Shown one piece after another: positions 22,028 to 44,178 of a DNA stretch of 64,000 bases. A model generated the notes under the pieces. The model saw only the letters and a program-made list of their open reading frames with translations, ran no database searches and was not told where the DNA came from. Origin of the DNA: Paenibacillus graminis (GTDB lineage: Bacteria; Bacillota; Bacilli; Paenibacillales; Paenibacillaceae); the NCBI RefSeq assembly GCF_000758705.1, contig NZ_CP009287.1, positions 2,666,001-2,730,000 on the forward strand, given 5' to 3'. The first letter of the stretch is position 1. Each line of letters begins with the position of its first letter. A program made the translations under genes and the position numbers.

Positions 22028-22074
22028 GTGAAAAATATCACAATTCACCTAATGCCTGCTTGGGAGGAATGGGT

Positions 22075-22644: not shown

Positions 22645-22645
22645 G

Positions 22646-24232: not shown

Positions 24233-25004
24233 GCCAAAAGTTAGCGTGATTATGCCCGTCTATAACCGTGAGGAAGTTCTCAGCTGCGCCATTGAAAGTG
24301 TACTGAACCAAGACTATGCAAAATTTGAACTGATCATTGTCGATGATTGCTCGACTGACGGCACGCCTGAATTAATCAGCAAATATGAAAAGATGGATAA
24401 ACGTATACGCAGTGTGCGGAATGAAATGAACAGCAGGCTTGCCCCGCAGGAATGGGAGCCGCGTAACGATGGTCTGAGACTGGCCCAAGGTGAATATGTT
24501 GCCTATCTGGATTCGGATAATGAATGGTGGCCGTCGTTTATCGGGGATATGTCGAAGGTGCTGGAGATGAACCCGGAGATGCAGCTTGTCCATTGCAACA
24601 GTCTTAATTTCTATCCGCCTCAAGTACTCCAGCGTGTTATGGCATCGGATCAGCGAAAACTAGTCTATAGCGGGAATGATTGTGCATGCTTCAGCTGTGA
24701 GGAGCTGACCGAAAGCGAATTCGGTGCTGCCGTATATATCGATACCAATGAAATGATGCATAGGGCTTCTGTATTCAGGGAGATCGGCGGCTACTGGAAT
24801 ACTTTCCACCCGAGGCGTAAGGAGATTCAAGCCTACCAAGGCAACCGCTATTTGTATCGAAGACATAATGATCAGGATTTGTTCGAACGCATCTATTACC
24901 GTTATTCACGCCAAAGCATATATCATTTAAACAAAATGCTTGTCAATTATTATTATCCCGGTTCCAACCGCACACGTCAGCCGCAATGGTTCGAGCATAT
25001 TTAG
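24222..25004 (+). CDS. Family 2 glycosyltransferase
   Basis: A GT-A fold: PKVSVIMPVYNREEVLSCAI at the N-terminus, FELIIVDDCSTDGT, and the DxD-type YLDSDNEW near residue 100. The C-terminal part (about 150-261) is Tyr/Arg/His-rich and unlike common polysaccharide GT2 enzymes. It would transfer a sugar from a nucleotide donor to the product or a precursor. The start is uncertain: ATG 24222 overlaps the decarboxylase stop, while GTG 24213 and ATG 24201 are alternatives. No nucleotide-sugar pathway gene is in the cluster, so a host sugar nucleotide is likely used. Confidence 0.85.
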   Translation: MWNKPKVSVIMPVYNREEVLSCAIESVLNQDYAKFELIIVDDCSTDGTPELISKYEKMDKRIRSVRNEMNSRLAPQEWEPRNDGLRLAQGEYVAYLDSDNEWWPSFIGDMSKVLEMNPEMQLVHCNSLNFYPPQVLQRVMASDQRKLVYSGNDCACFSCEELTESEFGAAVYIDTNEMMHRASVFREIGGYWNTFHPRRKEIQAYQGNRYLYRRHNDQDLFERIYYRYSRQSIYHLNKMLVNYYYPGSNRTRQPQWFEHI

Positions 25005-25025
25005 GCATAGGGAAGGAGACACGCC

Positions 25026-26294: not shown

Positions 26295-26307
26295 AAAGGA
26301 TCAACAG

Positions 26308-28582: not shown

Positions 28583-28597
28583 AGATGGGGAATGCCG

Positions 28598-30142
28598 ATG
28601 AGTAGAATGAACAGGCTGTTTCCGGACCTGAATTCGTTCAAAGACAGCTTGCTCCAGTGGGGCAGCTGGACGGGCGATTATACTTGGCTCTGCGACAATT
28701 CAACACGGGTGTCACAACGACTGCATGAGCTGGGAATTACCCGGTATATGAATGTAGTTATGATGATGCGGAACTCCCCGGCAATGCTTAGTGCAATTCT
28801 TGGAGCACTTGCTTGCGATGGAGTTGTTGTTCCCCTCTATCACAACACGCCGGCGCGTTCATTCGAGTTCATCATTCACGAAACGCAGCCCTTTGCTGTT
28901 ATATTTGACCGGAGTTGCATCGATAAAGAAGTGCTTACGCTTCTCAGAAACAAAGTGCATGCGGTACTTTGTATCGACTTCTGCGAAGGAAGCGGGCAAC
29001 TGGCCATTGAGGAGATAGCTTCTCCGGCCGGCAGCTTGGCGCCAAGATTGATGGATGAGGATGTATGTGAAATATTGTTCACCTCAGGCTCAACAGGCAC
29101 TCCCAAGGGTGTGCTGCTCACAGAGGACAATGTTAAGCATTGCGCCACCAGTGTACACACTTATCTGGAATTACAGTCAGCCGACAAAGTTCTCTTGACC
29201 AAACCTTTAGCTCACTCATCCGGTATGAATTCCGAATTGTTTGCCGCGTTATCGGTTGGAGCTTCTATTGTAATTGAACCTGAAGTGCTGGTTCTTTCCC
29301 GGCTGATCAGAGTAATCAGGAATTATGGAGTCACTGTTTTTTTTACGGTTCCTACATTGCTTGAACTGATAAGGAAAGCGGGGCTATTGCCCCGGTTCAG
29401 GGAGACGAAATTGCGGATTATTCACTTTTACGGCGCTCCGGCCGGTCAATCTCTTATCCAGGCTTTGATATCTGAAGTTCCCCAGGCAGAGATTATTTAT
29501 GGTTATGGAATATCGGAAGCGGCCTCGCGGGTCACATATATCAAGACAAGAGAGCTGGGTCTTCTCACTGGCTCTTCTGGCAAGCCTATCGCAGGAGTGC
29601 AAGTGGATATTCAGAGGCCGGATGGAACATCCGCCGAAGCCGGCGAAATCGGTGAGGTTGCTATAGCGGGTCCAACATTGATGAAAGGTTACTTGTCCGA
29701 AACAACCGCAGCGCCATTCCGCGCAGGCTGGCTGCTCACCGGGGATATTGGCTGGCTGGACAACGACGGTTATTTGTTTCTTTGCGGGCGTAAAGATGAC
29801 ATGATTATCAAGGCCGGGCTTAATATATATCCAACCGAGATCGAAGAGGTCTTATTGGAGCACGATGATGTTCATCTGGCTTTGGTTAAGGAAGAAAGCG
29901 ATCACTTGGGAGGCAGCAGAATAGCCGCCTATATAGAAGCTTGCTCTGGACAAATATTGTCCACTGCAGATTTAGTCCGTCATTGCCGGCTAAGACTGGA
30001 TCATCGCAAAGTGCCGGCGGCCTTTTATTTTGTGGACAAGCTGGAGCGGGGGTTAACCGGTAAAATCAACCGAAAGGGAAGTGGGGGCAATGGCGATGAG
30101 ATCCGTCCAGCAAGAAGTTTGGAAGTTAATCAAGGAGATTAA
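28598..30142 (+). CDS. Class I adenylate-forming enzyme (acyl-CoA synthetase/A-domain type)
   Basis: About 514 residues with the full set of core motifs: LFTSGSTGTPKGVLLT (A3), YGYGISEAA (A5), TGDIGWLDNDGYLFLCGRKDD (A7-A8), IKAGLNIYPTEIEEVL, and a C-terminal GLTGKINRKG (A10 lysine). An acyl carrier protein gene overlaps its 3' end, so the probable job is to load that carrier with an amino or carboxylic acid. ATG 28598 is better spaced from ATGGGGA than ATG 28592. The substrate cannot be predicted by eye. Confidence 0.88.
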   Translation: MSRMNRLFPDLNSFKDSLLQWGSWTGDYTWLCDNSTRVSQRLHELGITRYMNVVMMMRNSPAMLSAILGALACDGVVVPLYHNTPARSFEFIIHETQPFAVIFDRSCIDKEVLTLLRNKVHAVLCIDFCEGSGQLAIEEIASPAGSLAPRLMDEDVCEILFTSGSTGTPKGVLLTEDNVKHCATSVHTYLELQSADKVLLTKPLAHSSGMNSELFAALSVGASIVIEPEVLVLSRLIRVIRNYGVTVFFTVPTLLELIRKAGLLPRFRETKLRIIHFYGAPAGQSLIQALISEVPQAEIIYGYGISEAASRVTYIKTRELGLLTGSSGKPIAGVQVDIQRPDGTSAEAGEIGEVAIAGPTLMKGYLSETTAAPFRAGWLLTGDIGWLDNDGYLFLCGRKDDMIIKAGLNIYPTEIEEVLLEHDDVHLALVKEESDHLGGSRIAAYIEACSGQILSTADLVRHCRLRLDHRKVPAAFYFVDKLERGLTGKINRKGSGGNGDEIRPARSLEVNQGD

Positions 30143-30359
30143 ACCCGAAATGGATTTACCCGATTCAGCGGCTCCTGATACGGATCTGATGAACAGTCTA
30201 GGATTCGATTCCATTCAGTTAATCCAGCTGATAGTGAACTTAGAGACAGCGCTGGATTTTGAATTTGAAGACCAGGATATGTCGATGGAACACTTTTTGA
30301 AATTGGAAGATTTAGTTCATTTGGTAGAGCAACGGATCACAGAACAAACCACATTATAA
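30096..30359 (+). CDS. Acyl/peptidyl carrier protein
   Basis: An 87-residue stand-alone carrier with the phosphopantetheine site Ser39 in LMNSLGFDSIQLIQL and an acidic four-helix pattern. AAGTGGGGG lies at proper distance from ATG 30096. The gene overlaps the adenylate-forming enzyme gene, the classic arrangement of a discrete loading pair. The presence of a carrier without condensation or ketosynthase domains is like butirosin-type pathways, where an amino acid is built up on a carrier and then transferred. Confidence 0.9.
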   Translation: MRSVQQEVWKLIKEIKPEMDLPDSAAPDTDLMNSLGFDSIQLIQLIVNLETALDFEFEDQDMSMEHFLKLEDLVHLVEQRITEQTTL

Positions 30360-30379
30360 AAACCCCGGAGGTAATAGAC

Positions 30380-31381
30380 ATGATTTCGTACATTTTAGAA
30401 GGACCCAAAAATATGATACCGGTGGATGCTGAAATTCCGGAGCCGTCCCCGTATGAAGTCCGCATCAAAATAGCTTATACCGGTGTATGCGCCTCGGATA
30501 TTTCCATCTATCTCGGTAAACGATCGCCGGAAATGTATACGGAAGGCCCAGTATTGCTTGGTCATGAACCATCGGGAGTTATAGACAAGGTAGGGAGCAT
30601 GGTCACCGGTTTAAGGGTTGGTGACCGTGTTACCTGTATAGGTGTCTGGGGCTGTTTCTCCGAATATGTAGTCACCGAGCCGATGAATGTGTTAAAGCTG
30701 CACCCTGATCTTTCTTTAGTTGACAGCAGTATAGTTGAAGTTTTGCCGAGTATAGCGATGACAGCCATGAAAACGGGAATCACGGAATCGAGCGATGTTC
30801 TGATCTATGGTCAAGGTTTGACCGGACTGATCATGACCCGACTGGTCCGGTTCTTCGGTTGTAAAAAACTGATCGTTGCCGATTTATATGAAGAAAAGCT
30901 GCGGATTGCCAAAGAATTCGGTGCAACTTACTTCATTAATGCTTCTACCGAAAATGTGACAGAGCGAATCAAAGAAATTGTTCCTGAAGGCGTTGATATT
31001 GCCATTATTGCCACGCGGGACGGCAATGATGTGGAGAAAGCTATCGACTGGACCAGAATAAGAGGGAAGATCGTTAACTTTGGCGGAATTGGCCCCTGTG
31101 ACGGATTTGACTACTTTAAACTGCACAGAAAGGGACTTTCTGTGGTTAAAGAAAGTATGAATATTTCAGGTGTATTCGAGCACCGCAAACTATGGCGTGA
31201 TGCGATGGAGTTGGTCGCCGACGGGATTCTGCCGACACCGCGCCTTCGGACGCATATTTTTCCTATGGATCAATTACAACAAGCTCTCGATTTACGTGCA
31301 GAATGCAGTGCCGATGCGATTCATGTGTTGATGGAGAATGAGTGGGCGCGCGAAAAAAGGCTCAACGGAGAATTCTTCTAA
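30380..31381 (+). CDS. Zinc-type medium-chain dehydrogenase
   Basis: A 333-residue MDR-family protein similar to alcohol/sorbitol/threonine dehydrogenases. Catalytic zinc ligands are seen at GVCASD (Cys) and GHEPSG (His-Glu), and a glycine-rich nucleotide-binding segment around LIYGQGLTGLIM. The four-cysteine structural-zinc lobe of classical members is absent. It should oxidise or reduce an alcohol/carbonyl of a pathway intermediate with NAD(P). A CCGGAGG ribosome site precedes it. Confidence 0.85.
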   Translation: MISYILEGPKNMIPVDAEIPEPSPYEVRIKIAYTGVCASDISIYLGKRSPEMYTEGPVLLGHEPSGVIDKVGSMVTGLRVGDRVTCIGVWGCFSEYVVTEPMNVLKLHPDLSLVDSSIVEVLPSIAMTAMKTGITESSDVLIYGQGLTGLIMTRLVRFFGCKKLIVADLYEEKLRIAKEFGATYFINASTENVTERIKEIVPEGVDIAIIATRDGNDVEKAIDWTRIRGKIVNFGGIGPCDGFDYFKLHRKGLSVVKESMNISGVFEHRKLWRDAMELVADGILPTPRLRTHIFPMDQLQQALDLRAECSADAIHVLMENEWAREKRLNGEFF

Positions 31382-31404
31382 GCCTTAATGACAGGGGGAT
31401 CGGA

Positions 31405-32289
31405 ATGGATCAGCATAAAGGCAATATGATTGCAACTTATAGTGAAAGCCGTCAAGGCAACATTGTTAAAGCCGGGAGCACCAAAGGATTTATGAATCTT
31501 GGATATGAACGGTACTCTCTTGAAAAGACAAGCTCCAGACAGAAGCAAATCCAGATGGTTGACCATATTTTCGAATTGCTCAAACCGGAAGTGAATGAAG
31601 ATATAGCAGATGTGGGCTGTGGTATTGGCGGAGCTATGACGAGGCTTTTAAGTACATTTTCAGTCAAGTCTGTGACCGGTTTCAATATTGATCCGCTGCA
31701 GCTTGAAGCGTGCCGAAGCCTGCTGGAAGAATATCGTGTAGTGCAGCGAGCCCATTTGAACGAAGTCAACCTGGAAGAGGAAGGCCTCAGAGGACAACTC
31801 TTTGATAAGATATACGGCATTGAAATCTTGACCCATATCCGTAATAAAGAGAAATTTCTACAGCATTTATACAATGGAATCAAACCTGGCGGCAGACTGG
31901 TTTTGGCTTACACCACGTTGGCAAGGCCGTTTCATGAATTCCGGGGTGAAGATCAGGAGTTTATGCTGAAGATCGGAGAGTACTTCAAAGAGACACCGGA
32001 GGACTTTCTGACGGAACGGGATTATAAAGAATTGCTAAATGACGTAGGCTTTCGCGAAGAAAAGACAGTCAATGTTTCGGATCATGTCTTCCCACACCGG
32101 CACGCCCATATGGCTAAAACTTATGCACAGCTGAATTCCAAGAACCTGATTGTCAAAACAGTGAGTTCGTATTATTGGAAGAACAAAGAACGGTGCGATA
32201 TCGATTATCTGAATACGTTCCTTAAAGATCAAATAGCGAAGCATCAATGCAGGATGTACGAGTATTATTTGACCGCTTGGAGGAAATAA
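31405..32289 (+). CDS. SAM-dependent class I methyltransferase
   Basis: About 294 residues with motif I IADVGCGIGGAMTRL near residue 70, a FDKIYGIEILTHI acidic strand and the Erg6/tocopherol-methyltransferase-like layout of small-molecule methyltransferases. The AGGGGG at 31393-31399 sets the ATG at 31405; upstream codons belong to the overlap with the dehydrogenase 3' end. The substrate (O, N or C position of the product) is unknown. Confidence 0.85.
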   Translation: MDQHKGNMIATYSESRQGNIVKAGSTKGFMNLGYERYSLEKTSSRQKQIQMVDHIFELLKPEVNEDIADVGCGIGGAMTRLLSTFSVKSVTGFNIDPLQLEACRSLLEEYRVVQRAHLNEVNLEEEGLRGQLFDKIYGIEILTHIRNKEKFLQHLYNGIKPGGRLVLAYTTLARPFHEFRGEDQEFMLKIGEYFKETPEDFLTERDYKELLNDVGFREEKTVNVSDHVFPHRHAHMAKTYAQLNSKNLIVKTVSSYYWKNKERCDIDYLNTFLKDQIAKHQCRMYEYYLTAWRK

Positions 32290-32343
32290 ACGACGAATAT
32301 CGCCGGGATAACCGCATAAGTCGAAAAATAAGGGGGTTTCGTA

Positions 32344-34053
32344 ATGGACTTGGATTTACTCTTAATCTCTCCTCCGTATTGGGATTTTTACTCTCCCTTT
32401 CTGGCTTTGCCGAGTTTGAGCGGATTTCTGCGTTCCAAAGGATTCGCTGTACGGCAGCTTGATTTGAATATTGTTCATTTCAACCGGATGATCGATAAGC
32501 AGGGGTACGCCATTCTTAAAGAACTGCAAAATAATGATGTTTATGACGGTCTGGACACTGCATATAAAAATGTGTTCAAAGCAAACGATGCAAAAGAGTT
32601 TACCAGAAAGAGTGCCTTTATACAGCCGGGACAATTAAGCGGACAATTTCTCAAGAAAAATTTCTATCAATTTACATTGGATGAAATTAATTTTTTGGAT
32701 GGCATTTTTCATTATATTTATTTTAATCAGCTGTATAAAAAGAACTATTGGAATAAATTAATGGAGTTTGAACTGGACAGTATTATGGAGGAGGTTAGCA
32801 GCGAGCTGTTAACGGACACCTTGCTTGGCAACGGATGCATGACGTTGATTCAGCAAGGGCTTCGGCTGATCGGATTTTCCAGTACCAGCTTCGATCAATT
32901 CATTGTTTCCTGCATTTACGCCAGGATGATTAAAAGGATACACCCTGAGGTAAAAATTGTATTTGGCGGCAGCTACATCCCTGTGCTTATGAAGACGGTG
33001 CGCCCTGACAAACAGAGAAAGATCTTCGATTTATGTGATTATATAGTAAACGGAGAAGGAGAAACCGCCCTGGAGTTAATTATTCAGCACACCTCCAATG
33101 GACAAGGCGAATTAGCGGATATTCCTAATCTTTGCTTTATGGACTCTTCGGGACAGGTTGTTCATAATGCGGCTAAATTTGAAAATTTTCAACAGCTGCC
33201 GGAACCTGACTTCAACGATTTGGATTTTGAATTATACTTGATGCCTGAAATTATGCTTCCCTATCAGAGCTCACGCGGTTGTTTTTGGGGCCACTGTACA
33301 TTTTGCGACCATGATGCCAATTACCGGTATAATTTTAGAAGCAAAACTGCTGAGACGGTTGTAGAAAATTTAGCTGCTTTGAAAAAAAAATATAACAACC
33401 AACATATACAATTTGTCGATGAAGCAATTAAACCGGAGAAACTGAAGGAAATTGTAGCGGAGATGGAAGAACGTGAATTGAACTCGTTGGATTGGATGTA
33501 TTACTCCCGGATCAGCGGGGAATATACGGATGATCTTGTACAGAGAGCCAAAGCTTTAGGTTGCCGGCTGGTTTTGTTTGGCGTAGAAACGTTTAATTTG
33601 CGGCTTATAAAAATGATTCGTAAAGGCATTTCCGAGAAAAACATATCCAAAAATTTAAGTATGTTTAGTAAATTTGGAATTAAGAATATAATATGGATGA
33701 TTTGTGGGTTTCCTTCACAAAGGGAAGAAGAGATATGGTATGATATTGATAAACTTAAGGAAAATTCACCCAATTTAAAGGGGGTTTTCGCCGGTTTGTA
33801 CCGCTTGGAACGCAACTGCGATATGTACAGTGCACCGGAAAAATTCAATATCATTGATTCTGACCCGGATAATCCGTACATCTTCAAATCGCATTACAAC
33901 GGTGAACTGATCGATCAAAACCAAATCTTCTCTCTTTACAAACAGGAATATGCTCCGCTTGTGAGTGAGCTTTCCCGCTCTCACAACAGATATATTATCT
34001 ATTTTCGCCAGGAGGAACAGGATAAGTCAATGGAAAGGGGCTTGTCCAAATGA
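32344..34053 (+). CDS. B12-binding-domain radical SAM protein, CX4CX2C type
   Basis: 569 residues. The N-terminal 150-250 residues contain a cobalamin-binding-like Rossmann region (LLLISPPYWDF, then KIVFGGSYIPVL, YIVNGEGETALELI). The radical SAM core has SSRGCFWGHCTFCDHD, so the cluster cysteines are Cys313, Cys318 and Cys321: CX4CX2C instead of the usual CX3CX2C. The family makes C-methylations or other radical rearrangements at unactivated carbons. It overlaps the second radical SAM gene by 4 bases. Confidence 0.85.
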   Translation: MDLDLLLISPPYWDFYSPFLALPSLSGFLRSKGFAVRQLDLNIVHFNRMIDKQGYAILKELQNNDVYDGLDTAYKNVFKANDAKEFTRKSAFIQPGQLSGQFLKKNFYQFTLDEINFLDGIFHYIYFNQLYKKNYWNKLMEFELDSIMEEVSSELLTDTLLGNGCMTLIQQGLRLIGFSSTSFDQFIVSCIYARMIKRIHPEVKIVFGGSYIPVLMKTVRPDKQRKIFDLCDYIVNGEGETALELIIQHTSNGQGELADIPNLCFMDSSGQVVHNAAKFENFQQLPEPDFNDLDFELYLMPEIMLPYQSSRGCFWGHCTFCDHDANYRYNFRSKTAETVVENLAALKKKYNNQHIQFVDEAIKPEKLKEIVAEMEERELNSLDWMYYSRISGEYTDDLVQRAKALGCRLVLFGVETFNLRLIKMIRKGISEKNISKNLSMFSKFGIKNIIWMICGFPSQREEEIWYDIDKLKENSPNLKGVFAGLYRLERNCDMYSAPEKFNIIDSDPDNPYIFKSHYNGELIDQNQIFSLYKQEYAPLVSELSRSHNRYIIYFRQEEQDKSMERGLSK

Positions 34054-35753
34054 ATGTAGCGCTCTGGCATTATACCAATGAGAATGACAAGTCTACGTAT
34101 ATGCCTCTTGGAATTCGTTATCTTAAATCTTATGCCGAACAATATTGTGAACAATATCACAATGTTACGATAATCGAACGGCTTCACGAGTTGACGGATG
34201 ATGTGGATGTTGTGGCTATATCCTGCATGTCGCAAGATTTTGAACTTTTAAAGGAGCAGTTACAGGAGATTCGGAAACGGGTGCGGGACATTGTTCTGGG
34301 GGGATATCATATTTCCTTAATGCCGGAAACGCTTCCGGAGGAAATTGCTGTTGGCGTAAGATTTGAAGGAGAAGAAACCTTCAGAGAGATTCTGGATATT
34401 AGAGCCAGGAACGGTTCCTTGTTGCCTGAGTACTTAAGTGATGTCAAGGGAATTGTATACCGCAATAAAGGAAACGTGCAGATCAATCCCTTGCGTGAGC
34501 CGATCAAGAAAATGGAAACGGTCCCTTTTCCCGACAGAACCTCTTTAATGAAACCGTGGTGGCAAAAGAAACAAAACCTGTTTTCCTCACGGGGTTGCCC
34601 TTTTAAATGTGTATTCTGCTCTTCCACCAATTTCTGGAGCCGGTTTAGAAGATTCAGCGCAGAGTATGTGGTTGACGAGATTTCTGCCATCCTAAGAGAC
34701 TTCCCAGACACTCAGGAAATCACTTTCGTGGATGATTTGTTTACCGCTGACCGAAAACGACTGCGTAACATTATCAGTCTTATGGAAGAACGCAATATTC
34801 TGGGAAAATTGCTTATCAACATCTCTATCCGTGCAGATCAGGTAGATGATGAAATGTGCCAGCTGCTTAAGGTGTTGAATGCCAATTTCATTTATTTCGG
34901 TATGGAGTCTGCGAGCCCCCGTATTCTGAATTACCTCAAGAAAGGCACTTTAACCGTGCCTCAGATACAGAATGCACTTGATTTACTTTACCGGAACGGC
35001 ATTCCCATCAGTGCCTCAATCATTGTCGGTTCTCCTGGAGAGACTGAAGAAGATCTGCGGATGACCTATGATTTTGTTGTCAGGAATATGCGTGAAGGAA
35101 AGCTGAATGAAGTGGCTGCGAACATTTTGTCTCCGATGCCTGGTACGGAGCTCTGGGAGGAGGGCAAGACAAGGGGGATCATACAGGAGCCTGTAGAGTG
35201 GAACCGTATGCTTTATTATGGATATACGCATACTGAGAAGTTCTATAATAGGCCCTTTCAGGAATGGGTCAAACTAAGAAGCCAGAACGACAGCTTTTAT
35301 TTGAATGATGAGATGATGTCTCAGCACCGGCTCTATGAAATTATGCTGGAATACGATGTGCAGATCAAAAAGATATTTGTTGAACGGATCTACCGAAAAT
35401 ATCGGGTTCTTATCGAAAATACTCTTGCGCAGCTCCAGCCGGGCCGGAAATTGATTGTGTATCACGTGAATGAAATTTCATATGCACTGGTCCATCTTCT
35501 AAGAGAACAGAACTTTGAGGTCTCCTATGTAATAACGGATGATGATGAGATGAACTATACATACCTGTCTGATGTACCGGTGCTTCAATCCGGACAATGG
35601 TCCCGAATTAAGGATGACCACATTGTAATCAGCTGCAGCGAAAAAGACTCCGTTGAAGTAGAACACTTTACAGAGAAAAAAAAGCTGGACCTGATCAATT
35701 TAATGGCAGTAACACTCCGGGTAGGAGGGGAAAAGGTTGTTGAAGCAGAGTGA
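34050..35753 (+). CDS. B12-binding-domain radical SAM protein
   Basis: 567 residues. The N-terminal cobalamin-binding region shows DVVAISCMSQDFELLKEQL, IVLGGYHISLMPE and GVRFEGEETF. The radical SAM core has the canonical SSRGCPFKCVFCSS with Cys183, Cys187 and Cys190, followed by FVDDLF, FGMESASPRILNYLKKG and SIIVGSPGETEEDL. A C-terminal domain of about 150 residues ends in a Rossmann-like strand (KLIVYHVNEISYALVHLLRE) that I cannot assign. It works beside the first radical SAM protein; whether both bind B12 needs structure or chemistry. Confidence 0.87.
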   Translation: MNVALWHYTNENDKSTYMPLGIRYLKSYAEQYCEQYHNVTIIERLHELTDDVDVVAISCMSQDFELLKEQLQEIRKRVRDIVLGGYHISLMPETLPEEIAVGVRFEGEETFREILDIRARNGSLLPEYLSDVKGIVYRNKGNVQINPLREPIKKMETVPFPDRTSLMKPWWQKKQNLFSSRGCPFKCVFCSSTNFWSRFRRFSAEYVVDEISAILRDFPDTQEITFVDDLFTADRKRLRNIISLMEERNILGKLLINISIRADQVDDEMCQLLKVLNANFIYFGMESASPRILNYLKKGTLTVPQIQNALDLLYRNGIPISASIIVGSPGETEEDLRMTYDFVVRNMREGKLNEVAANILSPMPGTELWEEGKTRGIIQEPVEWNRMLYYGYTHTEKFYNRPFQEWVKLRSQNDSFYLNDEMMSQHRLYEIMLEYDVQIKKIFVERIYRKYRVLIENTLAQLQPGRKLIVYHVNEISYALVHLLREQNFEVSYVITDDDEMNYTYLSDVPVLQSGQWSRIKDDHIVISCSEKDSVEVEHFTEKKKLDLINLMAVTLRVGGEKVVEAE

Positions 35754-37512
35754 AAATAAGGCGGGGTCTTCCTGGAAAGTGCTCATCTCCCTGTTGCAAA
35801 TCAACAGAAAATTATGGCCACAGTATGTATTTTTAATCATTTGTATTATTTTGGCCGCTGGAATTGATGTGGCGGGAACGGAAGTGTTCAGACGCATGAT
35901 TTCGGCCGCTACCGCCAGAAATATGGAGGCTCTGCGGGAGTCCTTATTGCTAGCCGGAGGAATTATAGCGGGAACTGTAATTCTAGGGTCCTGTGCTTCC
36001 CTGCTCACGGAATTTGTAAATTACAAATCTTCGGTTCATCTGGAATCTTTAATGGTTCAAAAATTACTTCATATCAATATTGCCTACCATAAAAATTACC
36101 ACTCCGGAGACCTGGTGAAGAGGGTAAGCGACAATGCACGCAACGGCCAAATCGCACTGAACAATAATCTGATGGATGGTTTTCGGGTATTTGCAGTTAT
36201 CGTTCTAAATCTGGTGTATTTGAGCGCTATTAATAGCCTGTTTACCGTTAGCTGCCTTGTTGTCGCGCTGCTTCTTCCCTTCGCTCTAAAATACTTGTCC
36301 CGAAAATTAAATGTCATTTATGGGCGTAAGCTCAATGCCGAATCGGCGCTGAATGCATTCACGCAGGAGTGTATTGACGGCGCCGAGGTGGTCCGTACCA
36401 CCTCGCTGGGGGAACGGACGGATTCAATCTTCCACAGCAAATATGCGGAATTCATGAAATGGGCCAAAAAAGGGATCTGGTTTGAGTCGCTAACGAATCA
36501 GGTGAACTTTTTTATCCGTATCGGCGGCATGATCTTCATCATTGGCTACGGCGGTGTTCTCGTCAAGCAGGAGATCATTGGTGTCAGCAGCGTTGTGGCC
36601 TTTATTCTCGTATTCTGGAGAATGCTTAATCCGATATCCAATGCTATGGTGATGTGGCCCAAATTTCAAAATTCGTTAAGTCAATTGTCCCGTGCTTTGG
36701 AGATTTTTGAAATAGAGGAAGAACGCGGCATACCTAATGGCAATGAAATACTGTCCCGAAACAATAGTGAGCCGGAGATGGTACAATTCTCCAATGTAAG
36801 CTTTGCTTATTCTCCAGGTAGAGTTGTGCTCGACACCATTTCTTTTACGGTGAAAGCAGGCACTGTTACCGCAATCGTTGGCCCGAGCGGAAGCGGAAAA
36901 AGTACAATACTTCAGTTACTCCTCGGGTTTCTGCAACCGGTGTCAGGAGAGATCAGGATTGGTTCCGCATTGCAGGCGGAGCATGATATCTTGCAATGGC
37001 GAAGCGATATTGCTTATATCAGCCAGGAAATGTATGTATTCTCCGGGACTTTCTTTGAGAACATTGCTTTGGGTAAGCTTGATGCTACCTTGGGAGAGGT
37101 TATGGATGCAGCCCAAAAAGTAAATATGCACGATATGATCATGAGTACGCCTGAAGGCTATGGTACCTTGATCGGTGAAGGCGGGCTGACACTTTCCGGG
37201 GGAGAGTGTCAGCGAATCTCCATTGCCCGGGCTCTGATGAAGCAGGCCTCCATCTTTGTAATGGATGAACCTACCTCTGCGCTGGATGGAGAGAATGAGG
37301 CGGCTATCTTCCGGGAATTTAAGAACATGATTAAGAGTAAGACGCTAATTATTGTCAGCCATAAGCCGTTGCGGTTGGAGCAGGTGGACCAATACTTGTA
37401 TCTGGACCATGGACAGATTGTAGAACAGGGAACTTATGAGCAGTTGATTGCCCGGAAGGGCAAATACTATAACCTGCTAAACGGATATGCAGAGGAGCAT
37501 GATATCGCATGA
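35737..37512 (+). CDS. ABC exporter, half-transporter 1
   Basis: 591 residues: six membrane segments (about 25-320) fused to an ATPase domain with Walker A VGPSGSGKST, signature LSGGECQR and Walker B ASIFVMDEPTSALD. The TTG start at 35737 is set by AGGAGGGG and overlaps the radical SAM gene. The 4-base overlap with the next half-transporter gene suggests a heterodimer. Export of the cluster product, giving self-protection, is the likely role. Confidence 0.92.
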   Translation: MLKQSENKAGSSWKVLISLLQINRKLWPQYVFLIICIILAAGIDVAGTEVFRRMISAATARNMEALRESLLLAGGIIAGTVILGSCASLLTEFVNYKSSVHLESLMVQKLLHINIAYHKNYHSGDLVKRVSDNARNGQIALNNNLMDGFRVFAVIVLNLVYLSAINSLFTVSCLVVALLLPFALKYLSRKLNVIYGRKLNAESALNAFTQECIDGAEVVRTTSLGERTDSIFHSKYAEFMKWAKKGIWFESLTNQVNFFIRIGGMIFIIGYGGVLVKQEIIGVSSVVAFILVFWRMLNPISNAMVMWPKFQNSLSQLSRALEIFEIEEERGIPNGNEILSRNNSEPEMVQFSNVSFAYSPGRVVLDTISFTVKAGTVTAIVGPSGSGKSTILQLLLGFLQPVSGEIRIGSALQAEHDILQWRSDIAYISQEMYVFSGTFFENIALGKLDATLGEVMDAAQKVNMHDMIMSTPEGYGTLIGEGGLTLSGGECQRISIARALMKQASIFVMDEPTSALDGENEAAIFREFKNMIKSKTLIIVSHKPLRLEQVDQYLYLDHGQIVEQGTYEQLIARKGKYYNLLNGYAEEHDIA

Positions 37513-39251
37513 AGCATATAGGAGCCTCCATTTTCTTGAGAGTATTCACTTATGTGAAGAACGGCAAAAACCTGCTGCTGTTTGGCCTGGTTTTATTGAT
37601 GGTTGATGTCGCATTTAATATCGGTATAGCCAAGGTTCAGCAGTCCTTTTTGGATGTTCTGAATCAAGGCGATTTCAAGCGATTATCCTTCTATCTGATT
37701 GCGTTTTCCATCTGCTTCTTGCTTGCGATGATTCTTACCTTTGTGGGCTATTTCTTCAGAGAATATTCTTTTTCTTTGATGACAAGAAATTTCCAGTTTG
37801 ACACCTTCTCGATGGTAAACAAGTTGCCTTATGAAGAGCTCAAGGGACGGCACTCCGGGGATTTGATATCCCGCGCCTCCTATGATGTCCAAGACTGCTG
37901 CAGACATTTAAAAGACGGGCTCTTCGGGATTTTTGAGAACGCACTGCAGTTTGCTGTTGCTTTGACCTATTTGTGCTTTATCAATTTTCCGCTGGCCGTT
38001 GCTGTGGCTATTACGGGCGTCCTTATCTTTTTTATCAGCAATATATTTAATCCCAAGCTCCGGAAAATGTCTTCGGAAATATATAACAAGGAGTCTGATA
38101 TCAAGAATTTAATTAAAGAAATGGCGCAAGGAATTTCCGTAGTGAAAGCTTACGGGCTGCAAAGCTATTTCGAAGAGAAGTACGCAAAGTTTAGAAGGGA
38201 TACTTATCTGTTATACAGGAAAAGCATACTCACCAATGTGTTTATGCAGCAACTCCTGAATATTATGAGGGAATCGGTCTGGATCATAGGTGTATTTCTG
38301 ATCTGTTTTTCCGCAATAAACGGAGAAATGACGGTTGGCCTTGTGCTTACCTTTACGTTGCTGATGAGTCAGGTTTTGTGGCCGTTTGTAATTATCGCAG
38401 ATCGCTGGAGAACACTGAATAACAGCTACGGATCTGCATATCGGGCACTGGATCTTGCTTCCTCTGGACCATATTCGCATTCGGAGAAGATAGAAGACAC
38501 AATTCGATTATTACCTGCAGAGGAAGACATTGCCGTCTTATTGCGCAATGTATCGTTTAAGCCGGACAAAAGCGTCGAAGAGCCGCTGTTTGAATCTTTT
38601 GATCTTGAAATCCGCCGAGGCGAAAAGGTTGCCATCGTTGGAGCAAGCGGTTCAGGGAAGAGCTCCCTGCTGAAATTGATAACCGGTCTGTACCGGCATG
38701 ACAGCGGAATAATAAAGATCTTTGATAAGCAGGTTGACGGAACTTCTGAAGTAAAGGATTTTTATTCTTATGTTCCACAGCATAATTACTTGTTTACAGG
38801 AACAATCAGCGAGAATATATCCTTCGGAGCGAATTCCTTTGATGATGACCATATCAAACGCGCTGCTGAAGCAGCCAATGCGGATGAGTTTATTTCCCGG
38901 CTTGAGCAGGGGTACAGCACTCCCGTCAAAGAGGGGGGAGCTACACTATCCGGCGGACAAAAACAGCGGATTGCCATTGCAAGGGCAATGTTAAAGAATG
39001 CCCCGTTGCTTATTTTAGATGAAGCTACATCTTCTTTGGATCGCAGGAATGTGATGAAAATTCAACGCTTACTGGAAAACTTGCCAACAGAAACAACGTG
39101 TATCTTTGTGACGCATTCCCCTGCTTCCCTGTCCTTTGTGGATCGGATTGTCATACTGGAGAAAGGAAGGATAGCAGCCTCCGGAAATGTTGAAGAATTA
39201 ACACAGCGAAATCTTCTGTATCAGGAGTTATTTAACTCCGCCGAAGTATGA
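37509..39251 (+). CDS. ABC exporter, half-transporter 2
   Basis: 580 residues with the same layout: membrane domain to about residue 310, Walker A VGASGSGKSS, signature LSGGQKQR and Walker B LLILDEATSSLD with a following catalytic-type context. The ATG overlaps the stop of the first half-transporter. Together they form a BmrCD-like heterodimeric exporter by inference. Confidence 0.92.
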   Translation: MKHIGASIFLRVFTYVKNGKNLLLFGLVLLMVDVAFNIGIAKVQQSFLDVLNQGDFKRLSFYLIAFSICFLLAMILTFVGYFFREYSFSLMTRNFQFDTFSMVNKLPYEELKGRHSGDLISRASYDVQDCCRHLKDGLFGIFENALQFAVALTYLCFINFPLAVAVAITGVLIFFISNIFNPKLRKMSSEIYNKESDIKNLIKEMAQGISVVKAYGLQSYFEEKYAKFRRDTYLLYRKSILTNVFMQQLLNIMRESVWIIGVFLICFSAINGEMTVGLVLTFTLLMSQVLWPFVIIADRWRTLNNSYGSAYRALDLASSGPYSHSEKIEDTIRLLPAEEDIAVLLRNVSFKPDKSVEEPLFESFDLEIRRGEKVAIVGASGSGKSSLLKLITGLYRHDSGIIKIFDKQVDGTSEVKDFYSYVPQHNYLFTGTISENISFGANSFDDDHIKRAAEAANADEFISRLEQGYSTPVKEGGATLSGGQKQRIAIARAMLKNAPLLILDEATSSLDRRNVMKIQRLLENLPTETTCIFVTHSPASLSFVDRIVILEKGRIAASGNVEELTQRNLLYQELFNSAEV

Positions 39252-39292
39252 ATGGAATCTAATTATTTGCGCTATTATGGAGGGGAATATAA

Positions 39293-40324
39293 ATGAAAAC
39301 CAAGCTAGACGAGCTGTCTCTTGAGGCAAAGAAAGCTATACTACAGGCGGAGAGTCTTGCCGAACTGAATGAGTTGCGGGTGAAATATTTCGGAAAGAAA
39401 GGACTCATTACCGAGATTTCCAAAAAAATGAACACCCTCAGCCCGGTAGACAGACCCATAATCGGCATGATGGTTAATTCGGTCAGAGAATCTATAAAAG
39501 ATCAGCTGAACGAGAAATCCAAAGAAATTGAGCAGGGAATACTAAAAGAACAATTGGCTAAGGAAACCATTGATGTTACACTGCCGGGAAATCCGGCTCC
39601 TATAGGCTCGGTTCATCCGCTCAGCAAGGTTACGCAGGAGCTAGAGGATATCTTTATTGGCATGGGATATTCCGTCGAGGAAGGCCCCGAAATAGAGAGG
39701 GATTACTATAACTTTGAAGCACTGAATCTTCCCAAGGATCATCCGGCTCGGGATATGCAGGATACATTCTATATTACGGAAGAGATTTTGCTGCGATCCC
39801 ATACTTCCCCGGTGCAGATAAGAACTATGGAGCGAATGAAAGGTCAGGTTCCGGTTAAAATTATTTGCCCGGGGAAAGTATACCGCCGCGACGATGATGT
39901 CACCCATTCCCATCTGTTCACACAGATTGAGGGGTTGGTGATTGACCGCCATATCAGAATGAGCGACCTGAAGGGAACCCTGCTTCAATTTGTGCAGAAG
40001 ATGTTTGGGACTCAAACGCAAATCCGGTTGCGGCCCAGTTATTTTCCGTTCACGGAGCCCAGTGCGGAAGTGGATATATCCTGTATGTTCTGCGGTCAGG
40101 CAGGGTGCAGAATTTGCAAAAACAGCGGGTGGATCGAAGTGCTTGGCTCAGGAATGGTACATCCGAATGTATTGGAAATGTCAGGATACGATTCAACCCA
40201 ATACAGCGGGTTTGCATTTGGGATCGGTGTAGAGCGGATAGCGATGCTTAAATATGGTGTGAACGATATCCGCAACTTCTACACCAATGATTTACGGTTA
40301 TTGACACAATTTAATCATATATAA
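39293..40324 (+). CDS. pheS: Second phenylalanyl-tRNA synthetase alpha subunit
   Basis: A full-length 343-residue PheS. It has the N-terminal coiled coil (1-90), class II motif 2 ([20 protein letters not shown]), the Cys-rich segment ([19 protein letters not shown]) and motif 3 ([14 protein letters not shown]). The Ala in GFAFG, whose change to Gly relaxes substrate choice in E. coli PheS, is kept. The catalytic subunit therefore looks intact and able to use phenylalanine. A GGAGGGG site precedes it, and no T-box or other tRNA-responsive leader is present, unlike many housekeeping pheST operons. It lies inside the biosynthetic cluster behind the exporter genes. Confidence 0.9.
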
Positions 40325-40371
40325 CCCGTCGTTTATTTCCGGCATATCATCATAGTTAAAGGGGAATAAAG

Positions 40372-42498
40372 ATGAAAGTATCTACTACTTGGTTATCCGA
40401 ATATATAGATTTGAGAGGATATACAGGCGAAGAACTGGCAGAACAATTAACTGCCCATGGAATTGAAGTAGACAGTGTGCTGTCAGCTGCTGAACTTTAC
40501 GGACAGGAGTCTTCGCTTCAAGAGACGGAGGATAACATTCTCGACCTGGACCTTACACCCAACCGTTCAGATTGCCTCAGTATCATCGGCACGGCATATG
40601 AAATGGGGGCAGTGCTGGGAAGATATATGGATAGCAACAGTCTGAACCGTTACAACGTGTCCTCCTATAATTATTCACCTCTGAATTCATTCTCGGTTAA
40701 TAACGAGGCGGAGCAGGAATGTAAGTGTTATGCACTCGCATTAATAGAGAATGTTCAGATAGGGCCTTCTCCGCTATGGATTCAGCAGCGCTTGTCCTCT
40801 TTGGGAGTTGCACCGGTCAATAATGTGGTTGATTATGCCAACTATATTATGCTTGAATGCGGTCAACCTATTAATATATATGATGCGGATCAATTTTCCG
40901 GCGCCCAGATACAGATCCGGTTTGCCGATGAAGAAAACATCATGACTGCAGATGGTCTGGAAAGGACAGTCGATTCCACGGCCCTGCTTATTTCAGACGG
41001 ACAGAAGCCTGCTTCCATTGCCGGTATTGCCAATGCTGCCGACTATGAAATCTCACCGGGTACCCATAGAATATTGATAGAATCCGCCCACTTCTCAGGA
41101 AGTGTCACTCGTAAGACCTCCAGGAAGCTTGGGTTGCGCAATGAAAAGACTGTCCGCTTTGAAAAAGAAATTAATTTGGAGATGATTCTCCCTGCCCTGT
41201 TGCGGATCTCGGAGCTGATCGTCGCTGCTTCACCTGGGGCTAAACTGTCCGGTGTCTCACATTGGCAGTATGCACCTATTGAACACAAGACTATCAAAGT
41301 GAGCCAAGAAAAGATCAATCGCTATCTGGGTACTGAAATATCCGGAGAACAAATTGAAGCAATTCTGGAATATCTCCATTTTCCATTTGAGATTCCGGAG
41401 AATTCTGTTTATATCATCTCCGTTCCTAAGCGACGGGGGGATATTACCCAGGAGGTCGATATCATCGAGGAAATCGCCAGATTGTACGGCTATGAGCATA
41501 TTCCTGTGTCTCTGGTACAGGGCGTTACAACACCAGGAAGATTAACGAATGAACAGCGGATCCGGCGCAGCATCAGACATATTCTAATTCAAAGCGGGTT
41601 TAATGAGACGATCACATATTCTTTGACTCACCCTAAGCATTTCAATATGATCCCTGTAAACCCGCTGTATCCACAAGCCGTCTTTTTGAACAATCCCATG
41701 ACAGAAGACCGCTCCATGCTGCGGATGAGTCTATTGCCTCACCTTCTGGAGACAGCGTCCTTCAACTTGAAATATGGTACAGAGAACATTGCTATATTCG
41801 AAATTGGTAATATCTATTGCAGTAATGAGCCCGTTTTAACGCAGCTGCCGCAGGAGTTCCCCTGCCTGGGGATGTTGCTCACGGGGAAACGGAACCACCC
41901 CCACTGGAATTGCCCAGCCCAACCAGTATCTTACTATGACATAAAGGGAACTGTCGAGAAGATGCTGAACTATCTGGGGATTGAAAGCTATTCCTTTGAA
42001 GGGGCCCAAATTCAAGGTCTTCATCCAGGGCGAACAGCAAACATTTACTTAAAGGATAACGACGGTAATCCAATTTACGCTGGTTATGCGGCGCAGCTGC
42101 ATCCGGATGTCCAGAAACAATATGACCTTAAGGAAACCTTTGTGCTGGAGCTTTCTCTCGAGCCTATCTATCGGCTAACCGATTTTGGAATATCCGCTCA
42201 ATCGGCACCGAAGTATCCTTCGGTCCAAAGGGATATCGCGGTAGTGGTGCATGCCCATGTTTTCGCCGCTGCAATGATTGCCGGCATCAAATCATCCGCA
42301 GGAGAATGGTTGGAAGATGTGTCTATTTTTGATGTCTATTCCAGCGGCAGTCTGGCCCAGACAGGCCAGAAAAGCATTGCCTTCTCACTTGTGTTCCGTC
42401 ATCCGGACCGGACGCTTACGGATGATGATATCTATCCGGTATATGAACGAGTGGTTAATACATTAAAAGAACAATTCGCTGGCGAATTAAGACAATAA
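40372..42498 (+). CDS. pheT: Phenylalanyl-tRNA synthetase beta subunit lacking the N-terminal tRNA-binding OB domain
   Basis: 708 residues against about 800-810 usual. The start (MKVSTTWLSEYIDL...GIEVDSV) and the B3/B4 editing region (VVDYANYIMLECGQPINIYD, RKTSRKLGLRNEKTVRFEKE), B5 region, class II-like core and C-terminal anticodon-binding fold (APKYPSVQRDIAVVV to the end) are present. The stretch that normally follows residue 40 (EMAP-II-like OB fold, roughly 100 residues) is missing: the protein passes from VDSVLSAAELYGQESS straight to DLDLTPNRSD. This is a clean internal domain loss, not a frameshift. Possible roles are a resistant substitute enzyme or a synthetase re-used for biosynthesis. 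Confidence 0.9.
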   Translation: MKVSTTWLSEYIDLRGYTGEELAEQLTAHGIEVDSVLSAAELYGQESSLQETEDNILDLDLTPNRSDCLSIIGTAYEMGAVLGRYMDSNSLNRYNVSSYNYSPLNSFSVNNEAEQECKCYALALIENVQIGPSPLWIQQRLSSLGVAPVNNVVDYANYIMLECGQPINIYDADQFSGAQIQIRFADEENIMTADGLERTVDSTALLISDGQKPASIAGIANAADYEISPGTHRILIESAHFSGSVTRKTSRKLGLRNEKTVRFEKEINLEMILPALLRISELIVAASPGAKLSGVSHWQYAPIEHKTIKVSQEKINRYLGTEISGEQIEAILEYLHFPFEIPENSVYIISVPKRRGDITQEVDIIEEIARLYGYEHIPVSLVQGVTTPGRLTNEQRIRRSIRHILIQSGFNETITYSLTHPKHFNMIPVNPLYPQAVFLNNPMTEDRSMLRMSLLPHLLETASFNLKYGTENIAIFEIGNIYCSNEPVLTQLPQEFPCLGMLLTGKRNHPHWNCPAQPVSYYDIKGTVEKMLNYLGIESYSFEGAQIQGLHPGRTANIYLKDNDGNPIYAGYAAQLHPDVQKQYDLKETFVLELSLEPIYRLTDFGISAQSAPKYPSVQRDIAVVVHAHVFAAAMIAGIKSSAGEWLEDVSIFDVYSSGSLAQTGQKSIAFSLVFRHPDRTLTDDDIYPVYERVVNTLKEQFAGELRQ

Positions 42499-42511
42499 AG
42501 GGTGGAATGCG

Positions 42512-44086
42512 ATGTTAACAAGAAATGGTGCCGATAAGCAGGAAAGAAATGTTCTCGGTCATATTCGTCCCCTATATAGCTCCTATACACTGGATTATGT
42601 CAATTGTCTGGAGAATCCCATAGGTCTCGCAGTTGAAGGAATCCGGCCGCAGTACGGAGCTCTGTTCTATATCGGCCTGAAGCTCTTTAGAGCCTACAAC
42701 CATCATCTAAAGGCCGAAGAAGGGGAGCCACTTCAATTTTACATGGGGCAGGCGCTGGCAGCCTGCGGGTTACAGTTGAATTTTTTAAACGGGGTAGAGG
42801 ATTTGATTTCTGTGGTGAAAGCGGAAATCGACCGGAGAAATCCTGTTTTTGTTTTTGGGAATTTAAAGGAATTATATTATTCCAATCATTATAAAACCTC
42901 GGATTGGATGCATAATTTTCTTATTAAAGGATACGACGTTCATAAGAAGTTGTTCATGGTGATTGACGGATGTCAGAAGAAAAACGAGGAACATAACTAC
43001 GAGGAGTTTGTAATTCCCTTTGAAATTATGGACCAGCTGAATTCTTCTTTCATCGAAACATACGGTTATCCTTGTGTCTTCTCTATCATCAAATCAGATA
43101 ATCCGCCGCCGGGGCGAATTGGAATTTTATTGGACTATATTGATTTTATATCTACGCAGCTGGCAACGCAGCCATACAAAGAGCTTGAAATGATGAAGAA
43201 CGGTATTTGTGGGGAGGTCCCCTCGATCAATTCGCTCAGTTTGCCGTTATTCGAAATTATTAAGAACAAGGATGTACTATACTCGGAAATTATACGAGTT
43301 ATGCTCGAAAGCAGCGTTGCTGAAGCAACCGTTAAAGAGCTCAATGAACACAAAGCTGCAATGTTAGCCCAGGGATATTTACTCATCAATAATTATGTCG
43401 TCAGTCAAACGAGGGGAAAACATTTTGACATTGAGGACAAAGCCGAATCATTTATCCAAGCGGACGGTGCACTGAGAGAATCGCTGATGCGGATCATTTC
43501 AGATTTGCGAGAGGAATTGCAAAGGTATGATGAGCAAAAGGAGACGCTGATGGCGTTCGAAAACAATGCTGATCAGATTATTTCGCTAGCCAACGAAAAG
43601 GTAATCTTTAATTTTACAGGAGATAAGCTGTATAACTGCTGGATCACAGATGAATCTCCAAAGGCAGTGCATCAGCAAACAGAGAAGCTGGCTAAAGATT
43701 TTTGTTTCTCAGCGGATATCGAATGTTCCTCTTTGAGCAGCGAGGTTTTTTTTCACGCAGGACTAATTTTCAGAACAGCCCCCGGGGATTTATACTTTTG
43801 GGGAATCATGAACAATAAGTCGGTAGTCCTTGGGAAAACAGGTGAATTTCAGGAGTTGTTTATTTCTGAGCTCTATGCCCAGCCTCTTACATTAAGCATT
43901 AGAACGGAGAAGAATGGTTACCTATTCGAACTGCATTCCGCCCAGTCGCGTAAAAGTGTGGAATTCAAGGCTTCTGAAATTGGACAAATTGTCCAAATTG
44001 GACTAGGGTGCAAAACGTGGAATCGGCCTGAGCCATTGACCATCGAATTTAATCATTGCGGATTTGTTACGCATTCAAGCATTTGA
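42512..44086 (+). CDS. BtrH-like (cysteine-peptidase-like) protein with C-terminal beta-sandwich
   Basis: 524 residues and the last gene of the cluster. The N-terminal half (about 15-190) resembles the butirosin BtrH N-terminal domain: a Cys in YVNCLENPIGLA, then RRNPVFVFGNLKELYYSN and a KGYDVHKKLFMVIDGC strand. BtrH moves an acyl group from a carrier protein to an amine, so this protein may release the carrier-bound intermediate here. The C-terminal 120-130 residues look like a concanavalin-type beta-sandwich (CFSADIE, FFHAGLIFRTAPGDLYFWGI). Family assignment by eye is moderate. Confidence 0.55.
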   Translation: MLTRNGADKQERNVLGHIRPLYSSYTLDYVNCLENPIGLAVEGIRPQYGALFYIGLKLFRAYNHHLKAEEGEPLQFYMGQALAACGLQLNFLNGVEDLISVVKAEIDRRNPVFVFGNLKELYYSNHYKTSDWMHNFLIKGYDVHKKLFMVIDGCQKKNEEHNYEEFVIPFEIMDQLNSSFIETYGYPCVFSIIKSDNPPPGRIGILLDYIDFISTQLATQPYKELEMMKNGICGEVPSINSLSLPLFEIIKNKDVLYSEIIRVMLESSVAEATVKELNEHKAAMLAQGYLLINNYVVSQTRGKHFDIEDKAESFIQADGALRESLMRIISDLREELQRYDEQKETLMAFENNADQIISLANEKVIFNFTGDKLYNCWITDESPKAVHQQTEKLAKDFCFSADIECSSLSSEVFFHAGLIFRTAPGDLYFWGIMNNKSVVLGKTGEFQELFISELYAQPLTLSIRTEKNGYLFELHSAQSRKSVEFKASEIGQIVQIGLGCKTWNRPEPLTIEFNHCGFVTHSSI

Positions 44087-44108
44087 ACAGGTGTCTGCAA
44101 AAGATGTT

Positions 44109-44147
44109 CCCCTTATAAAGCGGAATTATATACCGCTACATAAGGGG
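44109..44147. terminator. Hairpin at the end of the cluster
   Basis: CCCCTTAT plus AGCGG pair with CCGCT plus ATAAGGGG across a short loop. No strong T run follows, so it may be a bidirectional end structure between the cluster and the convergent surface-protein gene. Confidence 0.6.
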
Positions 44148-44178
44148 AGCATGTTAATTTGTGGATCTTTTAGTGCCG

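Follow-up and report, generated by a model that had tools for sequence, protein, structure and literature searches.

A second phenylalanyl-tRNA synthetase with a reduced β subunit in an accessory biosynthetic island of Paenibacillus graminis

Results

The subject of this study is a pair of adjacent genes, pheS2 and pheT2, found in a 64-kb stretch of the genome of the soil bacterium Paenibacillus graminis (contig NZ_CP009287.1, positions 2,666,001 to 2,730,000; hereafter the window, to whose forward strand the genes and coordinates below refer unless stated otherwise). They encode the α and β subunits of a phenylalanyl-tRNA synthetase (PheRS), which we call PheRS2, and lie, in agreement with their initial annotation as cluster-encoded, inside an accessory biosynthetic island of 24.2 kb (19930..44172). 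The product of pheS2 (39293..40324) is complete, as had been stated; its 343 residues include both the class II core and the coiled-coil N-terminus (PF01409, E 3e-105; PF02912, E 1e-20; TIGR00468, 363.6 bits with a cut-off of 237.45). The product of pheT2 (40372..42498) has 708 residues and lacks the B2/OB domain. It exceeds the cut-off of TIGR00472 (598.5 versus 402.65 bits) and the Pfam cut-offs of PF17759, PF03483, PF03147, and PF03484 (B3/4, B5, CLM, and FDX-ACB), with the B1 domain PF18262 slightly below its cut-off (25.0 versus 26.8 bits). The pair is tightly packed between its neighbors, with gaps of 41 nt between an exporter gene and pheS2, 47 nt between pheS2 and pheT2, and 13 nt between pheT2 and the gene starting at 42512, and G-rich stretches resembling ribosome-binding sites precede the starts of both genes.

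The host genome (7.17 Mb, a single contig) contains a housekeeping pheST at 2.27 Mb, 434 kb from the window pair, encoding proteins of 352 and 814 residues. Hence pheST2 is a second PheRS beside the housekeeping copy, and its interpretation as the housekeeping enzyme is ruled out by that other pheST. PheS2 is 64% identical to its housekeeping counterpart; PheT2 is 43% identical and 106 residues shorter, close to the deficit of about 100 residues first estimated. Beyond near-identical proteins, the listed matches show 66-72% identity for PheS2 and 42-47% for PheT2, and, where named, are mostly from Paenibacillus or its relatives. No tRNA gene was found in the window, no known RNA family reached the gathering threshold upstream of either pheST, and predicted promoters and terminators in 37400-44400 were not in excess of those in shuffled sequence.

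The main structural peculiarity of PheT2 had been described as a jump from about residue 40 to the DLDLTPNRSD region, and this is borne out by alignment. The protein is normal up to about residue 36, continues with about 15 residues, and resumes near the DLDLTPNRSD motif. The stretch matching E. coli positions 39-150 comprises 15 residues in PheT2 versus more than 90 in each of 121 comparison PheTs, namely, the host's housekeeping protein, the E. coli protein, and 119 of the 120 best matches listed from the 2523 found in a search over 5.8 billion proteins. The remaining listed match, P0001, is near-identical to the window protein (99%; compost metagenome, cluster of 11 sequences) and was left out of the set. 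The tRNA_bind domain PF01588 was not found in PheT2 by the Pfam search, and P0001 also lacks it; in the host genome this domain occurs at two places, within the housekeeping pheT and in another open reading frame at 4.85 Mb. In place of the OB domain (approximately residues 39-150 of E. coli PheT), PheT2 has a short linker (40480..40530), delineated by the alignments and by low predicted local distance difference test (pLDDT) values at residues 45-52 of an AlphaFold model. This model (mean pLDDT 82.9, pTM 0.53, 32 sequences in the alignment) is closest to bacterial PheRS β chains, first the integrative model 9a5b_B and then the solved structure 2rhq_B (E 4e-66), and its domain packing is uncertain, with TM scores of about 0.5. 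Truncation of PheT2 by a frameshift or an assembly error was ruled out by the open frame, the stretch resembling a ribosome-binding site, and an architecture shared with P0001 and with Paenibacillus jilunlii (G029, NZ_FNGM01000001.1; 98% protein identity). With a separate pheST elsewhere in the genome and the OB domain truly absent, the two central statements of the initial annotation thus hold.

The B3/B4 editing domain of PheT2 (PF03483 at residues 117-284; 40720..41223) contains a degraded editing site. In E. coli numbering, the changes are R244A, T253A, H265N, A266I, G318N, G319A, S/T354N, and A356K, and N254, G315, and E334 are retained. R244, T253, H265, A266, and G318 are identical in all 121 comparison PheTs, and G319 in 120 of them; position 356, a lysine in PheT2, is alanine in 85 and serine in 36. 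At all positions tabulated, P0001 has the residues of PheT2. According to the accessible text of PMC3275996, Glu334 and His261 of the Thermus thermophilus PheRS are regarded as residues on which Tyr-tRNA-Phe anchoring and hydrolysis critically depend, and Thr249, Asn250, and Gly315 are close by; our alignment places His261 at the position of E. coli H265. Changes of G318 in the E. coli PheRS lower editing more than 70-fold (PMC4066437, in the portion available). Archaeal and eukaryotic PheRSs carry Asn where the bacterial enzyme has the editing-site His (PMC3275996, same portion), and therefore H265N alone is no proof of editing loss; the presence of Glu334 in PheT2 is a further reason for caution. 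The predicted loss depends on the combined changes, chiefly G318N together with A356K, and PheRS2 is very probably devoid of post-transfer editing.

The distribution of altered positions over the two subunits points in the same direction. At columns invariant in the 121 PheTs, PheT2 is altered at 10 of 37 in B3/B4 versus 4 of 57 elsewhere (one-sided Fisher p 0.0095), the latter being distributed as 0/5 in B1a, 1/9 in B1b and the linker, 0/12 in B5, 3/19 in CLM, and 0/12 in B8; at columns conserved in at least 98% of sequences, the numbers are 22 of 68 and 11 of 96, respectively (p 0.001). Some of the ten B3/B4 changes are conservative (I246V, V324I, and S357T). In a leave-one-out control on the invariant B3/B4 columns, 113 of the 121 PheTs change none and seven change one, the distant E. 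coli protein being altered at 15 of 52. Thus the initial view that the editing, B5, core, and anticodon-binding parts are all kept needs one amendment: the B5, core, and anticodon-binding parts and the B3/B4 domain as such are in place, but the editing site within the latter is degraded. In PheS2, 5 of 24 columns of at least 98% conservation are altered in the coiled coil and 6 of 132 in the catalytic module (strictly invariant columns, 0/10 and 1/87), giving 11 of 156 overall versus 3 of 156 in the housekeeping PheS. The synthetic core, B5, and the anticodon-binding domain (B8) are conserved, consistent with charging of tRNA-Phe. Since the regions dealing with the 3' end of mischarged tRNA are altered, and those for synthesis and anticodon reading far less so, an active, non-proofreading PheRS would be expected.

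In what we take to be the Phe pocket and the class II motifs, PheRS2 is ordinary at A294, F248, F250, and most other positions listed; the nearest changes are T168S and a motif 2 loop one residue shorter, which equals the E. coli length. As the losses hit the editing pocket and B2 with the synthetic site ordinary, the island product might act on the PheRS editing module, where it could trap tRNA-Phe in the pocket, or on B2; PheRS2 would then be resistant because it has lost that pocket and B2. Leucyl-tRNA synthetase (LeuRS) is inhibited through its editing site by benzoxaboroles, a precedent for such an action. Relaxed constraint predicts the same pattern of losses, and no PheRS inhibitor of this kind was found in the literature searched; we consider the proposal very unlikely. 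If it were true, the PheRS inhibitor would be of a new kind, and so would the resistance to it, in which the proofreading target is deleted and proofreading is left to the sensitive enzyme.

The borders of the island were defined by an empty site in one genome, by guanine-plus-cytosine (GC) content, and by gene order in two others. Four genomes that lack the island were compared at the left flank. In G047, the matches to the left flank (to 19929) and the right flank (from 44173) are 125 bp apart; in G059, the two flanks are likewise close, their matches being separated by about 600 bp; in G039, the left flank is followed after about 1.3 kb by a relative (43%) of the right-hand neighbor; and in G028 the left flank alone was found in the 15 kb compared. 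The GC content of the island is 0.442 versus 0.521 in 10001-19929 and 0.500 in 44173-54000, and that of pheST2 is 0.460 versus 0.565 for the housekeeping pheST. The polyamine genes at 17573-19928 were ruled out as a part of the cluster, the decarboxylase among them being matched in 83 of 100 genus genomes and both genes bordering the empty site on its left.

PheS2 (at least 98% identity), a carbamoyltransferase (at least 99%), and the protein encoded from 42512 (at least 94%) occur in the same three of the 100 genus genomes, the count for pheST2 resting on the PheS search; these are the window genome (G000), P. jilunlii, and G052. All queried genes from 20327 to 44086, the carrier protein having been left out of the queries, are in order in the latter two. 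In another genome, G061, which is 10% contaminated, two housekeeping-type PheS matches (65%) were seen. Synonymous divergence (dS) between the window and P. jilunlii is below 0.1 in 10 of the 13 island genes compared (0.118, 0.118, and 0.187 in the others), whereas the two flanking genes compared show 0.19 and 0.23 (0.19-0.24 for flanking genes in the comparison with P. jilunlii and G052), well above most island genes. Much of the island thus seems to have passed between these species once they had separated. In G052 (C1, approximately 4776600-4796460), tblastn splits the decarboxylase, the aminotransferase, the U32-like gene, and pheT2 of the island, each one base off in spacing, and PheS2 and the remaining queried genes are intact. 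The split genes reflect either sequencing errors of the assembly or decay; in the latter case, the joint loss of pheT2 and biosynthetic genes would be noteworthy.

Comparison of the window with P. jilunlii gives ratios of nonsynonymous to synonymous substitution rates (dN/dS) of 0.097 for PheS2 (7 residue differences) and 0.189 for PheT2 (13 residue differences), with no stops in either. Judging from these ratios, which come from few differences, pheST2 is under purifying selection. In phylogenetic trees, of which one included 60 of the 119 listed matches beyond the near-identical one and that of PheS 40 of the 119 together with 27 genus loci in frame, PheS2 and PheT2 each form a long branch of unsure placement. 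A recent duplication of the host's own pheST is not favored: the PheS proteins differ by more than a third of their residues (identity given above), and the 27 genus PheS proteins and the housekeeping one form a clade without PheS2 (support 100). A tree joining PheS2 with the genus PheS proteins is not rejected and has an even higher likelihood (approximately unbiased (AU) test, p 0.785), and therefore the origin of PheS2 is left undecided.

The long branch, the lost domain, the degraded editing site, and the frame change in one of three island genomes would all be explained if pheST2 were a horizontally acquired spare with no tie to the island product, kept by chance and slowly decaying. The low dN/dS values and the 98% protein identity between the window and P. 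jilunlii do not fit slow decay, nor does P0001, which shows the window residues at every tabulated position, and the location of the pair between exporter and assembly genes is not that of a chance passenger. We therefore judge a spare of this sort to be quite unlikely.

The gene content of the island is that of a biosynthetic pathway. Upstream of the synthetase genes it encodes a carbamoyltransferase (20327..22027; PF16861 and PF02543), a flavin reductase-like protein (22060..22644; PF01613, E 2e-27), a group II pyridoxal phosphate (PLP)-dependent amino-acid decarboxylase (22637..24232; PF00282, E 2e-46), a family 2 glycosyltransferase (24189..25004; PF00535, E 6e-30), a PLP enzyme of the class I/II aminotransferase fold (25026..26294; PF00155, E 7e-24), and a protein faintly similar to peptidase U32 (26248..27372; PF01136, E 8e-4, below the cut-off), whose C-terminus is Cys-rich and for which no family match exceeded the cut-off. 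The next genes encode an AMP ligase of the PaaK/F390 type (27347..28582; PF00501, E 2e-4, and NF045666, E 2e-20, both below the cut-off), an AMP-dependent acyl ligase (28592..30142; PF00501, E 5e-63), and, in an open reading frame at 30081..30359, a discrete carrier protein of at most 92 residues (start uncertain) with a GFDSIQ motif (PF00550, E 1e-8, 35.8 bits with a cut-off of 20.8). These are followed by a zinc-type alcohol dehydrogenase (30380..31381; PF00107 and PF08240), an S-adenosylmethionine (SAM) methyltransferase (31342..32289; PF08242, E 3e-12), a first radical SAM enzyme, probably B12-binding (32344..34053; PF04055 above the cut-off, PF02310 and the NCBIfam models of C- and P-methyltransferase type below), a second, B12-binding one (34050..35753; PF04055 and PF02310 above the cut-off), and the two halves of an ATP-binding cassette (ABC) exporter (35737..37512 and 37509..39251; PF00664 and PF00005 in both), the second of which immediately precedes pheS2. 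The decarboxylase at 22637 has, besides those in the window genome and P. jilunlii, two further matches (33-34%) among 295 family genomes at E 1e-30, and G052 is not among the matches listed.

The last gene of the island (42512..44086) encodes a papain/C39-like protein, hereafter the 42512 protein, with an apparently lectin-like C-terminal part. Its putative triad of Cys32, His134, and Asp152 is conserved without exception in two overlapping sets, each of 10 sequences, and BtrH_N matches the protein below the cut-off (E 0.0023). Structural matches to its model (mean pLDDT 79.5, 10 sequences) comprise AziU2-U3 chains (E 5e-7) and CtaG (E 1e-5), the CtaG entries including the C11A, H128A, and D144N variants, as well as lectin-like and GH43 proteins, which we assign to the strand-rich C-terminal part. 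Fold and triad thus make the 42512 protein a likely amide-forming transferase of the CtaG/BtrH type. The protein search yielded two relatives. Others (26-42%) were seen at loci L031, L032, L033-L036, and L025/L026 in other Paenibacillus and an Alkaliphilus metagenome-assembled genome. ABC genes lie close to several of them and an AMP ligase gene close to two, and the stretches compared contained no pheST2 match; these relatives represent a small unnamed family of CtaG/BtrH-like proteins. CtaG is termed the peptidyl transferase of closthioamide assembly (PMC6772006, available part). With a discrete carrier, an AMP ligase, and a CtaG-like transferase, the predicted gene set is as for a non-canonical thiotemplated pathway, and the product would be a small amide built on the discrete carrier.

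PheRS2 might, as also suggested initially, be a supply enzyme, providing Phe-tRNA, a mischarged Phe-analogue-tRNA that would not survive proofreading, or Phe-AMP as a building block of the product, in which case the editing loss would be adaptive. It would widen the range of tRNA-borne residues, as in the G318W variant of the E. coli PheRS, which charges m- and p-Tyr (PMC4066437, in part), and the adjacent 42512 protein is, by its modelled fold, a papain-like transferase. Moreover, carrier proteins and papain-fold proteins of the BtrH family also occur in predicted clusters that encode class I synthetase paralogs (available text of PMC2922099), and the alanyl-tRNA synthetase (AlaRS) of the ascamycin cluster provides Ala-tRNA to AcmF (PMC12945691, accessible part). 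However, no aminoacyl-tRNA-dependent transferase (Fem/GNAT, cyclodipeptide synthase (CDPS), peptide aminoacyl-tRNA ligase (PEARL), or synthetase-like) was recognized among the island proteins, 18 of which were scanned with Pfam and 15 with NCBIfam. In addition, homologs of the 42512 protein in G028, G089, G090, and G092 are without a pheST2 match in the stretches compared, and activation is already provided for by the carrier protein and two AMP ligases. This role appears to us unlikely.

Discussion

The explanation to which we incline, with slightly better than even confidence, is that pheST2 encodes a back-up PheRS with which the producer protects itself against a PheRS-directed product of the island, in keeping with the resistant target suggested initially. 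The island would make and export a small amide-type compound on the discrete carrier protein, the product would block the housekeeping PheRS, and PheRS2, encoded in the same gene run as the exporter, would keep charging tRNA-Phe with Phe in its presence. For this task it would retain the synthetic site and the anticodon-binding domain, with B2/OB and, very probably, post-transfer editing lost. The editing site of PheRS is about 30 Å from the synthetic site, and growth of E. coli without PheRS editing is normal except with m-Tyr or under oxidative stress (both from the available text of PMC4066437). PheRS2 could therefore dispense with editing, since this function is dispensable in E. coli and the editing site of the blocked housekeeping enzyme remains, perhaps still hydrolyzing mischarged tRNA-Phe in trans. 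That PheRS2 charges tRNA-Phe, no longer edits, and withstands the product is inferred, as are the target of that product and the editing in trans.

In favor of self-protection, pheST2 co-occurs with the island and stands between the exporter and an assembly protein. The housekeeping copy elsewhere, the empty site, the conserved synthetic core and B8, the low dN/dS values, and the precedents AcmD and SbzA described below speak for it as well. Several observations weigh against it. No product is known for the island. No clear resistance change was found in the Phe pocket among the positions compared, and the ordinary pocket is therefore evidence against simple synthetic-site resistance. The changes are concentrated in the editing module and, when columns of at least 98% conservation are counted, in the coiled coil of PheS, a pattern not predicted for an inhibitor of the synthetic site. 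Relaxed constraint could account for the losses even if no inhibitor is involved, and pheT2 of G052, one of the three island genomes, does not read through. If self-protection by PheRS2 is nevertheless true, the island would be a lead to a PheRS inhibitor of bacterial origin. Among natural agents, ochratoxin A and neomycin B have been linked to PheRS, the latter through binding of tRNA-Phe (PMC7916415, available part).

Various aspects of PheRS2 have counterparts in described systems. Like the (αβ)2 PheRSs of Paenibacillaceae (TIGR00468/TIGR00472), it has all catalytic and anticodon-binding parts and exceeds the equivalog cut-offs; unlike them, it has no B2/OB domain, has a degraded editing site, and is extra to a normal copy. 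The PheRSs of Mycoplasma mobile and of yeast mitochondria are each the sole PheRS of their compartment. As described in the accessible portion of PMC4066437, both are without editing function, as is predicted for PheRS2; the enzyme of yeast mitochondria lacks the editing domain altogether, whereas in PheRS2 the domain is present and altered, and a proofreading-type copy coexists. Since a proofreading-type and a seemingly non-proofreading PheRS share one genome, PheRS2 could serve as a natural test of the roles of the bacterial B2 and editing domains.

Cluster-borne synthetases have been described before: AcmD, an AlaRS, for ascamycin, and SbzA, an isoleucyl-tRNA synthetase (IleRS), for SB-203208 (PMC12945691, in part). 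AcmD resembles PheRS2 in being a second synthetase in a biosynthetic cluster with the canonical copy elsewhere, and its resistance exceeds that of the canonical enzyme; according to the same partial text, it differs in being an AlaRS, in having a known partner, AcmF, none being recognized here, and in its function having been tested, PheRS2 being known from sequence alone. The mupirocin-resistant IleRS of S. griseus, of the eukaryote-like IleRS2 type, is a resistance-type synthetase without one proofreading step (PMC4861432, accessible text), as PheRS2 is proposed to be. Unlike PheRS2, it is a class I enzyme in which the pre-transfer editing that depends on tRNA is lacking and the domain for post-transfer editing is retained (same source). 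An extra PheRS linked to a biosynthetic cluster was not found in the literature searched, which covered few subscription papers. A complete, normal-length pheST is annotated on the Anoxybacillus amylolyticus plasmid pDSM15939_1 (L074).

To our knowledge, no PheRS is known in the closthioamide pathway. Like the island, this pathway has a discrete carrier, an AMP ligase, a decarboxylase, an aminotransferase, and a CtaG-like transferase (PMC6772006, in the part available). It uses two carriers, whereas one was recognized in the island, and no ATP-grasp enzyme was found among the island proteins scanned; the carbamoyltransferase, the glycosyltransferase, and the radical SAM enzymes of the island are extra with respect to the pathway as given in that part. 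G051 (C6, 306001-338000; L094/L095) contains distant homologs of the carbamoyltransferase, of the two AMP ligases, and of the ABC genes, with no match to pheST2 or the 42512 protein in the stretch compared, and this cousin cluster could show the core chemistry without a PheRS.

Finally, at 58186-59559 on the reverse strand, 14 kb outside the island, the window encodes a protein of 457 residues, assigned by reading its sequence as similar to histidyl-tRNA synthetase (HisRS). By sequence it would be a second, divergent HisRS or a HisZ-like protein, and the host genome has two other relatives of it, one at 5.598 Mb (31% over part of the length) and one at 0.153 Mb (27%).

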